DNA of 20,094 nt from a virus. The notes beneath the pieces were generated by a model. The model was not told where the DNA came from. It was given only the letters and a program-made list of their open reading frames with translations, and did no database searches. Positions 4,125-7,563 of the stretch are shown in pieces. Each line of letters begins with the position of its first letter. Position 1 is the first letter of the stretch. The stretch lies in the IMG/VR virus record IMGVR_UViG_3300038309_000134, positions 1 to 20,094 of that record, one strand, 5' to 3'. The position numbers and the translations under genes were made by a program.

Positions 4125-4811
4125 ATGAGTTTATTTAGCACAGTAATTGAATCAGAGGAACCAACAGATGATGGGATTGAAACAATTGATACGGAAGGTG
4201 GGCAAGAAATTGAAGAAAGCGCTCAAAGACCTGATTGGCTACCTGAAAGGTATAAAACACCCGAAGACTTCGCCAAGGGATTTAGCGAGCTCGAAAAGCG
4301 ACTAGGTGTAGCTCCCAAGGAATATGACTTTAAAGCTGGTGAAGGATGGATAGATTTAGAATATGAACCATTTCATGAGTTGGCTGATTTTGCTAAATCA
4401 AAGCATGTTCCGCAAGATGTTATGGATAAGATGCTTAGTACAGTTGGAACATATCTTGATGAGTTTAAATCGGATATCAATGAAGAAAAAGCCAAGCTTG
4501 GAGAAAATGCCCAAGAGCGATTGAGCGTTTTAAACAATTGGGCCAAAGCAAATTTCAGTGAAAATGCGTTTGCTGCTTTGACAGACAACATGCGTACCGC
4601 CGCCGCAATTGAGGCGCTAGAAGAGGTAAGGAACAAAATGATTAATAACGAAACCAAAATCCCAACAGGAAATGAAGATACTACTGATGGTGGCTTAACG
4701 CTTGAATCAGTACAACAAGAGCTTACTGATAACTTAGAAAAATATCAAAAAGATGTTACATATCGTAAACAGTTGCAACAAAAAATAGCTTCATTAAGGC
4801 AAACAGATTAA
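4125..4811 (+). CDS. Scaffolding protein, 228 residues
   Basis: The protein is acidic and mostly helical. It has an Asp/Glu-rich N-terminus (residues 8-34), the hallmark PDWLPERYKTPEDFAKGF with an ELEKRLG helix (36-61), an amphipathic central part, and a basic, Gln-rich C-terminal helix (about 195-228). The motif of a LPERYKTPEDF type followed by a helix is typical of podovirus scaffolds that line the procapsid interior, binding the coat protein through the basic C-terminus and leaving before or during packaging. The position directly before the capsid gene fits. AGGAGAGGGG just before the ATG is a strong ribosome site. The stop TAA (4809-4811) lies in a palindrome described separately. Confidence 0.85.
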   Translation: MSLFSTVIESEEPTDDGIETIDTEGGQEIEESAQRPDWLPERYKTPEDFAKGFSELEKRLGVAPKEYDFKAGEGWIDLEYEPFHELADFAKSKHVPQDVMDKMLSTVGTYLDEFKSDINEEKAKLGENAQERLSVLNNWAKANFSENAFAALTDNMRTAAAIEALEEVRNKMINNETKIPTGNEDTTDGGLTLESVQQELTDNLEKYQKDVTYRKQLQQKIASLRQTD

Positions 4812-4826
4812 TTCTTGACAAGAATT
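4810..4826. repeat. 17-bp perfect palindrome at the scaffold stop / capsid promoter
   Basis: AATTCTTGACAAGAATT reads the same on both strands around a single central base (8-base arms). It contains the TTGACA of the candidate capsid promoter and starts at the last bases of the scaffold stop codon. A one-base spacer is too short for an RNA hairpin of full stem length, so an operator for a dimeric protein fits better than a terminator. Confidence 0.5.
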
Positions 4827-4844
4827 GAGAATAGGCTTTAAGAT
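4815..4844 (+). promoter_or_regulatory. Candidate sigma-70 promoter for the capsid gene
   Basis: A consensus -35 box TTGACA (4815-4820) is followed after 18 bases by TAAGAT (4839-4844), a 4-of-6 match to the -10 consensus. Transcription from here would start near 4851 and give a leader of about 130 bases before the capsid ATG. A dedicated promoter for the most abundant virion protein would make sense. The -35 lies within a perfect palindrome, suggesting control. Confidence 0.45.
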
Positions 4845-4859
4845 TTAAAAATCATTCGA

Positions 4860-4917
4860 GCAGCCATATTGCTGCCTGAAGGGGTACTTTATCAAAGCGG
4901 TCTGGGAACAGATACCC
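4860..4917 (+). promoter_or_regulatory. Structured capsid mRNA leader: hairpin plus three-way junction
   Basis: The 168 bases between scaffold and capsid hold no gene but show dense base pairing. GCAGC (4860-4864) pairs with GCTGC (4871-4875) around a six-base loop. Next, GGGTA (4882-4886) pairs with TACCC (4913-4917) and encloses two arms: CTTT/AAAG (4887-4890 with 4894-4897, loop ATC) and TCTG/CAGA (4901-4904 with 4909-4912) capped by GGAA, a GNRA-type tetraloop. The outer stem joins both arms with no unpaired base, leaving only CGG between the arms. This is a geometric prediction by eye. No known riboswitch or ribozyme consensus was recognised. Confidence 0.4.
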
Positions 4918-4942
4918 GCAAACTTGGTAAATCCTTTTAGAG

Positions 4943-4960: not shown

Positions 4961-4979
4961 TCAACTATAGGGGTTTACC

Positions 4980-5810
4980 ATGTCTATATCTTTAACCAAT
5001 GTTCAACAAATCGAATTTGATGCGCTTGTAAAAGCCGTCTATCGTTCACGTGGCTTCTTACTACGAGATACCGTCCGTCAAAAAACTGATGTAATCGGTA
5101 ATCAAGTTTCTTTCCGTAAAGTAGACCAAGTAATCGCGGTTGAAACTGCCTACCTGCAAGCCGTAACAATTCAAGATCCTGGTTATGCAAAAGCAAACGC
5201 TACTCTTTTGAAATACACCGCGCCTACTGCTGTGGATGAAGTTCAAGAGTTGACGGTTAACTTCGATGCCAAAATGGAAAACGCGATGTTAGTAGCTCAA
5301 GCTATGGGCCGACGTTCTGACCAAATTCTTATCGATGCTTTAGATGCTGATCCAGGCGATACCATTGTGAATGGTGGAACTAACTTTACCTATGACAAAT
5401 TCACGCAATGCTTAGAGTTTTTTGATGACAACGCTGTTCCACTACCTGAGCGTTTCGTTGCAATGTCGGCTAATAACTTCCGTAGTTTGTTGGGCGATGA
5501 CCAGTTCGTTTCTACCTTCTACACCAAAAATGATGTTATTGACCGAGCAAGAATCCGTGAATACTTAGGATTTAACGTTGTCGTTATCCCTTCAATGACG
5601 GAGGGAGGTTTGCCTAAAACTGGAAACATTCGCACAGCTCTTGCTTGGCACAAAATGTCTACTGGTTCCGGTATCGGTAAAAACTTCCGAACTGAAATCA
5701 ACTACATTCCACAAAATACTTCCTTCTTGATTAACGGAATATTTTCTATGGGTGCGGTCGTAATTGATAACCGTGGTGTATTAGCAATTGATTGCGACGA
5801 AACAGCTTAA
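4980..5810 (+). CDS. Major capsid protein
   Basis: The 276-residue protein follows the scaffold and matches the coat proteins of BPP-1-like and related podoviruses, expected to adopt the HK97 fold. The visible family pattern includes an N-terminal FDALVKAVYRSRGFLLRDTV helix, a Gln/Val-rich strand region (QVSFRKVDQVIAV), then a central RRSDQILIDALDAD helix and a C-terminal beta region with GFNVVVIP, TALAWHKM and a closing MGAVVIDNRGVLAIDCDE. It is on the short side for the fold. Its own leader with promoter and RNA structure suggests independent, high expression. AGGGG six bases before the ATG is the ribosome site. No sign of a protease or a cleaved delta domain was noticed. Confidence 0.88.
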   Translation: MSISLTNVQQIEFDALVKAVYRSRGFLLRDTVRQKTDVIGNQVSFRKVDQVIAVETAYLQAVTIQDPGYAKANATLLKYTAPTAVDEVQELTVNFDAKMENAMLVAQAMGRRSDQILIDALDADPGDTIVNGGTNFTYDKFTQCLEFFDDNAVPLPERFVAMSANNFRSLLGDDQFVSTFYTKNDVIDRARIREYLGFNVVVIPSMTEGGLPKTGNIRTALAWHKMSTGSGIGKNFRTEINYIPQNTSFLINGIFSMGAVVIDNRGVLAIDCDETA

Positions 5811-5854: not shown

Positions 5855-6884
5855 GGCTTTTGATAGAGACAGATGGACACGAGTATCGTTAGCGGATAAT
5901 ACCGGTGCGATTACTTTAGATGATGCAAGCGTGGTAAATGGCCCAGCATTTTTTACTTATAAAAATGCGAGCGATACACTGGCTACAATTGAAGCAGCAA
6001 ACTATTTTTCAGCCGCAGCTTATGACTTGGCTATTGGTGACTTTCTTATGGTTACTGGTAGTGATGGTAATAGTATTGAAGTTGTGAGCGCTGTTGATAG
6101 AAGTGCCAACCCAGCAACAGTTAGTGTAACTGCCTATGCAATTAGTGGTGGAATCTCAACTACGTTACCCTCCGGTGATATTCTTGTCGGTTCCGCTTTA
6201 AACGTTGCTACTGATGTAACAATGTCTGGCGATGCTACCATTATTGCTGATGGAACCTTAACTATTGCTGCTGGCGCAATCGATAATGCTAAAGTAGATG
6301 CGGCTGCTGGAATTGTATTTTCCAAGCTAGAAACCTTAGCTTCTGGAGAATTGATTGTTGGTTCTGCTGGTGGTGTTCCGACTGCTGTAGCAATGTCTGG
6401 TGACGTTGCCATCATTGCAAGTGGTGCTACTACTATCCAAGCAGGTGCGGTTGATTCATCCATGATGAATGCAAACATGCTTCGTTACGCGACTGTTACT
6501 ATGAGTGCTGCTGAATTTAACGGTGCGTACGTTACGCCTCATCTATTGGTAGCTGCTGCTGGTGCAGATACCATGTTGGTTCTTGAGTCCGCACAAGTAT
6601 TGATGACTTACGGAACTACACAATTTGCCAATGGTGGTGTAGCTCATATTCAATATGACTCAACTACTTTAGGTGCTGGTATTATTGCTTCTAGTACCCA
6701 AGCGGCTGCAAACTTCTTTGATGCCGCTGATACGGCTCTTGGATTTAATCAAGGCACTGTTAAACAGCCTTTCGCTACTGCGATCAACAAAGGACTTTAC
6801 TTCTCGAACGTAACAGGCGCGTTTGACACTGGTGACAGTACATTTGTTGTTCATGTATGGTACAGAACTATACCAAGTGTTTAA
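5853..6884 (+). CDS. Capsid-associated decoration / head-fibre-like protein, 343 residues
   Basis: It directly follows the capsid gene, where podoviruses place decoration or head-fibre proteins. The first ~97 residues form a compact domain with the pattern seen in phage capsid-associated proteins: an aromatic-Thr strand (FFTYKNASDTLATIEAANYF), a D-L-x-x-GD turn (58-63), and a VSA-x-x-x-x-ANPATVSVTA end. Residues 107-206 contain two copies of a 57-residue repeat, beginning SGDILVGSALNVAT (107) and SGELIVGSAGGVPT (164), each with MSGD and an AI-rich triad, consistent with a trimeric beta-helical shaft. The C-terminal 130 residues look like a globular beta tip. AAGGAG supports the ATG. It ends sharing four bases with the minus-strand HNH gene. 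A tail component is a less likely alternative. Confidence 0.65.
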   Translation: MAFDRDRWTRVSLADNTGAITLDDASVVNGPAFFTYKNASDTLATIEAANYFSAAAYDLAIGDFLMVTGSDGNSIEVVSAVDRSANPATVSVTAYAISGGISTTLPSGDILVGSALNVATDVTMSGDATIIADGTLTIAAGAIDNAKVDAAAGIVFSKLETLASGELIVGSAGGVPTAVAMSGDVAIIASGATTIQAGAVDSSMMNANMLRYATVTMSAAEFNGAYVTPHLLVAAAGADTMLVLESAQVLMTYGTTQFANGGVAHIQYDSTTLGAGIIASSTQAAANFFDAADTALGFNQGTVKQPFATAINKGLYFSNVTGAFDTGDSTFVVHVWYRTIPSV

Positions 6885-7432
6885 TTTTTAGTTAAATAGT
6901 TGGTTGCGGATTGGGTTAGCTCTGGATTGTCATTGAAGTAACCCAATCCCATATTGCATTTATAGCATAGTAGTCCGCGAATAAGTCCTGTTGAATGACA
7001 ATGGTCTACAGCAAAATTTACATCTTTAGTTTTATTAGCTTTATGTTCTTCAATATGAATCAAGCAAATTGCACATCGGTGTCCTTGTGAGAAGAGTAGT
7101 TTTTCAAAAAAATCGACCGATATACCATAGCGTTTTTCTAAGCGCCAATTTGTTTGACGACGTTTATATTTTTTTTGATATTTTTTTTGTGTGGAAGGAT
7201 TATAGTTAGAGTTTACACATAACCTGCATACCGTACTCCCATTTTTTCGAAACGTAGTATCATTAATTTTTATAAGTCCATGAAATGGGCAGCGTTTTCC
7301 GCACCAAAAAGGCAAGAGTTCCTTATAAGGTTTTACTTTATATTTTTCTCTTTCCCATCGATGGACGGGGCACCATGCATGATTTTTGTTACGTGGATTA
7401 TCACAAAAGGGGGCATTGCAGACTAATGGCAT
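6881..7432 (-). CDS. HNH endonuclease, endonuclease VII type, 183 residues
   Basis: The C-terminal part (residues 101-180) fits the endonuclease VII family: RYGISVDFFEKLL, Cys120-x2-Cys123, the active-site AVDHCHSTG with Asp143-His144-x-His146, IRGLLCYKCN with Cys156-x2-Cys159 and Asn160, and GYFNDNPE. These proteins cut DNA; free-standing copies in phage late operons often act as homing endonucleases. The N-terminal 75 residues hold further ligand groups (Cys5, Cys10, Cys21, His24; Cys44, Cys48, His51; Cys69, Cys72), probably extra zinc knuckles for DNA binding. The start at 7432 is chosen because GGAG lies six bases upstream; an in-frame ATG at 7522 has a hydrophobic, unsupported extension. 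The gene is reversed relative to its neighbours and unusually T-rich in places (T-runs around 7170-7190), suggesting acquisition. Confidence 0.85.
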   Translation of the reverse strand: MPLVCNAPFCDNPRNKNHAWCPVHRWEREKYKVKPYKELLPFWCGKRCPFHGLIKINDTTFRKNGSTVCRLCVNSNYNPSTQKKYQKKYKRRQTNWRLEKRYGISVDFFEKLLFSQGHRCAICLIHIEEHKANKTKDVNFAVDHCHSTGLIRGLLCYKCNMGLGYFNDNPELTQSATNYLTKN

Positions 7433-7563
7433 TTTACTCTCCAGTAAACTCAGTAAGAAGCAAAACCAAACTGCTGAGTAAACAGTCTTTCGCGTTGCAA
7501 TCGCTAGGTTTTGCAGTTGCATTATAAAGGTATATACTATATTTATCTACTTAGGGGCATATT
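7433..7563. promoter_or_regulatory. Spacer between HNH gene and tail genes with weak promoter and repeats
   Basis: The 131-base divergent spacer contains AGTAAAC twice (7443-7449 and 7477-7483) and an inverted ACTCAG/CTGAGT pair (7448-7453 with 7474-7479). TTGCAG (7511-7516) and TATACT (7533-7538), 16 bases apart, form a modest sigma-70 match that could restart transcription of the tail genes downstream of the reversed HNH gene. AGGGG at 7553-7557 is the ribosome site of the next gene. No terminator is visible. Confidence 0.35.

Follow-up and report, generated by a model that had tools for sequence, protein, structure and literature searches.

A conserved twin-bulge RNA in the capsid gene leader of podophage-like viruses changes together with two residues of the scaffolding protein

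The leader of the major capsid protein gene in a large group of uncultured phages harbours a conserved RNA, a hairpin within a hairpin whose two bulges change together with each other and with two residues of the scaffolding protein. This co-variation suggests that the scaffolding protein reads the RNA to set the amount of shell protein. We consider it probable that the leader is a conserved cis-regulatory RNA, and that, by binding the two bulges, the scaffolding protein governs capsid translation through a choice between two mutually exclusive helices, P1 and P3.

The window, by which we mean the whole 20,094-base IMG/VR virus record that was analysed, has a podophage-like head and tail module (portal, scaffold, capsid, tail). 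The surroundings of the capsid leader are as follows:

4125..4811, plus strand: gene of the scaffolding (capsid assembly) protein (phrog_1052 head assembly, E 2.2e-8)
4815..4844, plus strand: sigma-70-like promoter TTGACA-18-TAAGAT, with 10/12 matches, which opens the leader
4855..4880, plus strand: tentative 5' hairpin, GCAGC/GCTGC with a TTC/GAA extension, overlapping the 5' strand of P1
4980..5810, plus strand: gene of the major capsid protein (phrog_3437 major head protein, E 7.1e-39)

The leader is indeed a non-coding stretch of 168 bases between the scaffold stop at 4811 and the capsid ATG at 4980, as the preliminary description of this DNA had it, and its transcript is expected to start near 4851. 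A promoter scan of the window found 2 sites, against 1.3 in shuffles. Across homologous leaders, a best site scoring at least 10/12 is present in 52 of 100, against 15 of 500 shuffles of the same stretches. Further downstream, at 6881-7522 on the minus strand, a gene for a recombination endonuclease VII-like protein (PF02945, E 1.7e-19) lies inside the structural operon, and is possibly a homing-type insertion.

The conserved fold spans 4878-4938, where helix P1 encloses hairpin P2. One type of asymmetric loop, a wobble-type pair followed by a three-base bulge, breaks both P1 and P2, and the bulge sequence UAC occurs twice in the window, at 4885-4887 and 4913-4915. We number the bases of each loop N1 to N4. 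The elements of the fold and of the alternative hairpin P3 are:

4878..4883, plus strand: 5' strand of the P1 outer helix, GAAGGG, pairing with 4933-4938
4884..4887, plus strand: loop 1, with N1 = G opposite T4932 and the bulge N2-N4 = TAC
4888..4895, plus strand: 5' strand of the P1 inner helix, TTTATCAA, pairing with 4924-4931
4897..4919, plus strand: hairpin P2, with GCGG/CCGC, U4901 opposite A4912 and the tip CTG-GGAA-CAG
4912..4915, plus strand: loop 2, with N1 = A and the bulge N2-N4 = TAC, identical to bulge 1
4924..4938, plus strand: 3' strand of P1, TTGGTAAA-T-CCTTTT, which doubles as the anti-Shine-Dalgarno strand of P3
4926..4979, plus strand: predicted hairpin P3, sequestering the Shine-Dalgarno sequence AGGGG (4969-4973) and mutually exclusive with P1

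The motif common to the leaders can be written GG-R-YAM-CUU ... C-CC-tip-GG-R-YAM ... AAG-C-CC. In the window, the segment 4876-4940 folds at -22.5 kcal/mol (z -3.96), and none of 200 shuffles is as good. Folding energy is of little use as evidence in the homologues, as the core alone is no better than shuffles in some of them (z of +1.0 and -0.61 in two loci, L224 and L189).

A different fold had been proposed at the outset, namely a compact three-way junction at 4882-4917. Its complementary segments exist at those coordinates, so that the junction pairs are possible in the window sequence, but the minimum-energy fold of these 36 bases differs from the junction. Taken alone they reach -7.4 kcal/mol (z -0.65), which 52 of 200 shuffles equal. 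Across 74 distinct aligned homologues, 53.7% of cells pair as the junction requires, whereas the fold with P1 and P2 reaches 85.7%; of the five closing-stem pairs, three are lost in 70, 56 and 49 of these homologues, and the arm CTTT/AAAG is paired in 36.8%. As for the arm TCTG-GGAA-CAGA, its outer T-A pair fails in 66 of 74, whereas its CTG-GGAA-CAG tip is conserved as the end of P2, the sole part of the junction to be so. The chance that the junction is the functional fold, with an energy no better than shuffles and with the closing stem and first arm lost in homologues, is in our view negligible. The bulged hairpin that had been mentioned as its competitor comes nearer to the conserved fold, which is nevertheless a longer hairpin with bulges.

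The GCAGC/GCTGC hairpin that had been placed before the junction is present at 4860-4875, but a 5' hairpin reaching P1 is not predicted in most homologues: the GG of P1 is paired upstream with a probability above 0.5 in 35 of 99 leaders. We also observed that the hairpin preceding P1 is often capped by a loop containing UGAC (in L050-L080 and others), which may be a further conserved element.

Homologous leaders were collected by capsid-based searches of IMG/VR, with 80 loci for each of several queries and much overlap between them. A covariance model (alignment A3) built from 10 leaders matched 83 of 99 sources in a first round, once each: 83 of the 88 of the window type and none of the 11 of a second type, found in phage MEP301 and described below. 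All these matches immediately precede the capsid gene and have its orientation; no other match up to E 1 was found in the 494 kb of that first search. In a second round 61 of 68 sources matched; of the seven misses, L311 and L403 break off within the capsid gene, and the other five show the element by eye (L047, L049, L077, L381, L406). Altogether, the capsid start lies at most 160 bases downstream for 100 of 101 distinct cores. A conserved, covarying RNA thus lies directly upstream of the presumed target gene, as in protein-responsive translational leaders.

In 74 distinct rows of the alignment, 85.7% of cells hold standard pairs, against 64.8 (sd 0.8) in shuffles, and the two P2 helices (helices 4 and 5) are 94.1% and 98.5% paired. 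Both partners have changed in 347 cells; shuffles give 126 (sd 10) and a slid partner strand 28-82. Such double changes are seen in 17 of the 21 pairs. Paired counts are biased upwards by the fitting of the alignment to the fold, but the slid and shuffled controls show that this fitting is not the whole of the covariation effect.

The distribution of the element was also addressed independently of the capsid gene, with a DNA pattern made of the two loops and the AAGCCC strand. It retrieved 48 viral contigs, 45 of which were confirmed by the covariance model; the capsid gene is directly downstream in 44 of these, and the remaining one is cut at the contig end. In GTDB genomes the same pattern hit 13 contigs, none below E 1 with the model, and the element is thus found in no cellular gene at that stringency, although the pattern is strict and distant copies could escape it. 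At this stringency the element is confined to one phage capsid gene family. No Rfam 15 family reached its gathering threshold in the window, in 20 window-type loci or in 20 loci of the MEP301 type, and the leader gave only sub-threshold matches when compared with Rfam at E up to 10. No account of an RNA preceding phage capsid genes was found in the literature searched, with most subscription journals outside its coverage.

The two bulges vary in concert. In all 101 distinct cores the two loops agree at N4 (A/A in 80, C/C in 21) and at N3 (A/A in 98, C/C in 3), whereas N2 varies freely between them. N4 changed at least five times on the capsid tree, at least four times on the scaffold tree and six times on a quick tree of 105 rows; N3 changed three times on the capsid tree, two of them on well-supported branches. 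Each N4 or N3 change on the capsid tree affected both loops, while N2 changed 11 and 20 times in the two loops, not together. Gene conversion between the loops was rejected as the source of the agreement, since copying of a loop would carry N2 along; the agreement at N3 and N4 points instead to one reader of both loops. A count on 53 leaders leaves out L044 and L063 (mis-set or without a parse). N1 and the base facing it appear to behave as a wobble-type pair, being A.C in 97 and G.U in 4 of the 101 cores in P1, and A.C in 91, G.C in 5, G.U in 2 and other combinations in 3 in P2. In a group of six loci (L168, L171, L177, L179, L205, L208), loop 2 apparently has one additional base, with U replacing the facing C, and this seems to be a variant of the binding site.

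The identity of the putative reader is suggested by a short region of the scaffolding protein:

4227..4307, plus strand: scaffold residues 35-61, RPDWLPERYKTPEDFAKGFSELEKRLG, a motif with Y43 (codon 4251-4253) and G52 (codon 4278-4280)

Around columns 43 and 52 the motif reads RPxWLPxK[F/Y]KxxxDxAK[S/A/H]xxELExxxG. Residue 52 (window numbering) was tabulated in 99 scaffolds, three of which lack it. With the 73 leaders whose N3N4 is AA it is mostly S (70), the others being one A and two G; the 20 AC leaders go with A (19) or G (1), and the three CA leaders all with H. The Ser52 codons are AGY in 57 cases and TCN in 13, hence it is the amino acid and not the codon that follows the RNA, and RNA-RNA pairing with the scaffold codon was discarded on these grounds.

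To each sufficiently filled, variable column of six proteins we gave a score, the number of the five independent N4 switches on the capsid tree that it follows. Among 401 columns of the scaffold (201) and capsid (200) and 634 of four other neighbouring proteins, only scaffold columns 52 (4.9/5) and 43 (4.8/5) track all five switches; the next-best columns reach 3.0 in the scaffold, 2.05 in the capsid and 3.04 in the four other neighbours. The capsid protein is therefore unsupported as the RNA partner, its best column following 2.05 of five switches. This co-evolution supports the suggestion in the preliminary description of an element that could regulate capsid translation or be bound by a phage protein, except that the coat protein, named there as an example, gives way to the scaffolding protein as the likelier partner. 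Linkage or recombination as the cause of the scaffold correlation was rejected, given that only two of 201 scaffold columns, and none in the four other neighbours, behave in this way.

The same result bears on the idea that the ligand is a metabolite, an ion or a host protein, the scaffold correlation then stemming from linkage or host specificity. Doubled binding sites are known in some riboswitches, and the strand that P1 has in common with P3 is reminiscent of translational riboswitches, in which the binding domain overlaps in this way with the helix hiding the Shine-Dalgarno sequence. Nevertheless, linkage would not pick out two of 201 columns in the adjacent gene, the GTDB pattern matches were not borne out by the model, Rfam gave no match, and the strict pattern search in GTDB brought up no aptamer shared with cellular genes of a ligand pathway. 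We regard such a ligand as improbable.

A two-residue rule summarises the correspondence: AC if Y43 occurs with A or G at 52, CA if H52, and otherwise AA. The rule was made post hoc, and its fit to 95 of 95 scaffolds is to the data it was made on (101 cores less 2 without a scaffold, 3 with the scaffold cut, L206, L220 and L222, and L050, with no residue aligned at 43). It also holds in seven of seven held-out loci (L411, L472, L473, L474, L381, L077, L046), the first four of which were fetched after the rule was made; L406, whose scaffold is not in the locus, and L047, L049 and L078, which are near-copies of L046/L077 or have the scaffold cut, were left out of that test. L472 and L474 (AC) and L473 (AA) are relatives, their capsids being 80-93% alike, that differ in both partners. 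Sign tests on independent pairs, five for N4 and two for N3, do not reach 0.05 alone, and the weight of the co-evolution lies in the uniqueness of the two columns and in the held-out cases.

An AlphaFold2 model of the scaffold (mean pLDDT 81.5) places residue 52 in a helix, 46-60, and residue 43 just before it. No solved structure resembles this model, the fold search having given nothing credible. With PF05396 (Phage_T7_Capsid) the window scaffold scores 16.3 bits, under the cut-off of 27.1, which the scaffolds of MEP301 (132.7 bits) and Hodr (33.0) pass. The scaffold motif is also found in Hodr and in a Vibrio phage, whose related capsid genes are preceded by short spacers without such a leader; the form shared with the scaffolds of leaderless phages is P-x-W-L-P-x-K-F/Y ... 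A-K-S-Y/W-x-x-L. The motif must thus serve at least one further purpose. In L046 about 2 kb, occupied by other genes, separate the end of the scaffold gene from the capsid gene downstream, and the leader is still beside the capsid gene, which is what a cis element of the capsid mRNA should do. The intervening block in L046 (about 940-2830), and likewise in L047 and L406, looks replication-like by eye, an unusual place for such genes.

How binding might affect translation is suggested by the predicted hairpin P3, an alternative pairing that hides the Shine-Dalgarno sequence, as in protein-responsive translational leaders. The segment 4925-4979 folds at -20.9 (z -4.95), with none of 200 shuffles as good. 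The two P3 strands co-vary across leaders: their duplex energy averages -8.44, against -6.92 (sd 0.16, best -7.37 of 200) when strands are re-dealt among leaders, and no re-deal is as good. In unconstrained RNAfold predictions P3 has a probability above 0.5 in 82 of 99 leaders, and P1 in 1 of 99. Forcing P1 against P3 costs a median of 12 kcal/mol in these 99 leaders; the Shine-Dalgarno sequence then becomes more open in 67 and less open in 16. The natural reading of these predictions would be that P3 is the OFF state and P1/P2 an ON state in need of a stabiliser. The chief concern with this switch model is how costly P1 is predicted to be. As P1 is rarely favoured and costly relative to P3, switching would call for a kinetic (co-transcriptional) mechanism or a strong drive by protein; P1 can form before P3 is transcribed, and its stabilisation would thus probably take place during RNA synthesis.

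The prevalence of P3 would also suit a leader that only stabilises or processes the mRNA, with P3 either cleaved by RNase III or shielding the message, and everything else passive; T7 late mRNAs are cut by RNase III. We find this most improbable, as it leaves the conserved loops, their lock-step change and the scaffold correlation unexplained. Another possibility is that the scaffolding protein does bind the twin bulges but represses capsid translation, or is tethered there for co-translational assembly. The co-evolution fits binding whatever its effect, and the predicted energies, which disfavour P1, do not of themselves yield an opening effect. However, P1 of the window ends about 31 bases upstream of the Shine-Dalgarno sequence, and the usual ribosome footprint stops short of that distance. 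Moreover, P1 excludes the covarying, sequestering P3, and a tether would need neither of these features. Repression or tethering thus appears unlikely, though less so than the two preceding alternatives, and activation is favoured on the predicted geometry of P1 and P3.

We therefore infer control of capsid translation by the leader, and the co-evolution argues for direct binding of the RNA by the scaffolding protein. In the activation model, P1 and P2 would present two copies of one site, a three-base bulge beside a wobble-type pair, and the scaffolding protein would recognise both through residues 35-61, with residues 43 and 52 reading bulge bases N3-N4. Since the 3' strand of P1 is the anti-Shine-Dalgarno strand of P3, scaffold-bound P1/P2 would keep the ribosome site open, and P3 would close it without scaffold. 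Free scaffold would switch capsid synthesis on, and excess capsid would consume the free scaffold, switching its own synthesis off. It is tempting to speculate that free scaffold is a stoichiometric feedback signal that opens the ribosome site, restricting capsid synthesis to times when scaffold is available to chaperone the product, and that the motif is an unrecognised RNA-binding module with a partly readable code of two residues for two bases; we put the chances of this fuller proposal slightly below even.

A second type of leader, different and strongly conserved with multiple hairpins, is found in MEP301 and in 80 further loci retrieved with its capsid protein (L082, L086-L165), which is 36% identical to that of the window. 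MEP301-type leaders similarly precede a related capsid gene and have two asymmetric internal loops, C-NN-A facing C, on mirrored, opposite strands. Pairing in their inner stems reaches 96% and 88% of positions and drops to 68% and 65% on re-dealing; A was a fixed requirement at N4 in the loop patterns used, where agreement is thus partly by construction. Their scaffolds have F and S at the positions of 43 and 52, with S at position 52 in 49 of the 49 distinct loci parsed, of 65. Unlike the window type, these leaders comprise several hairpins in another order, and the window model finds none of the 11 searched. We therefore treat them as a related kind of leader and not as members of the window type. 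MEP301, whose host is Methylophilales FZCC2181, is a cultured phage and could serve for experiments.

The loop of the window type might be compared with the C-loop, an asymmetric loop described in PMC8983868 as having a longer strand that usually starts with C and makes two non-Watson-Crick pairs to the other strand. MEP301-type loops begin with C, whereas those of the window type begin with A or G and their N1 covaries with the facing base (A.C, G.U, A-U, G-C), which argues against a C-loop in the window type.

Several known systems share features with the proposed one. The T4 gp32 pseudoknot and the gp43 and RegA targets are described in PMC3014915 as leader RNAs bound by a phage protein, often one with another main job, that controls translation of phage mRNAs. 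A phage protein with another main job would similarly be the translational controller here. Unlike in the autogenous T4 operators, this protein would be the scaffold and its target another gene, that of the capsid; furthermore, the sites in the capsid leader are two bulges that precede the helix sequestering the Shine-Dalgarno sequence, and the ribosome site would be opened by binding, not covered. In the operator of MS2-type RNA phages, the coat protein binds a single bulged hairpin over the replicase start and represses translation. A structural phage protein would likewise read a bulged hairpin in the capsid leader, but in a dsDNA phage, with two sites in one element and the scaffold as partner. 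The P22 scaffolding protein reportedly regulates itself post-transcriptionally, unassembled scaffold lowering its own synthesis (work attributed to King, Hall and Casjens, and to Wyckoff and Casjens), and we know of no such RNA element for it. In both cases unassembled scaffold would feed back on head-protein synthesis, the target here being the capsid gene and not the scaffold's own synthesis. As for translational riboswitches and ribosomal-protein leaders, their binding domain shares a strand with a Shine-Dalgarno-sequestering helix, as P1 does with P3; unlike them, the capsid leader has no cellular homologue found in our searches, and its recognition appears to co-evolve with protein residues.

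The proportion of capsid to scaffold in tailed phages is usually explained at the level of assembly. For T4, King's review (PMC9576892) describes structural proteins translated at the same rate whether or not they are assembled, with minimal feedback. If our proposal is true, an RNA tying capsid translation to the scaffolding protein would be a direct control loop. Among uncultured phages we count 101 distinct cores, hence roughly a hundred variants of the element. Some of these phages are natural relatives in which RNA and scaffold both differ, so that the hypothesis can be put to the test straight away. If it holds, the motif that the scaffolding proteins of several phage groups have in common would moreover acquire a role in RNA binding.
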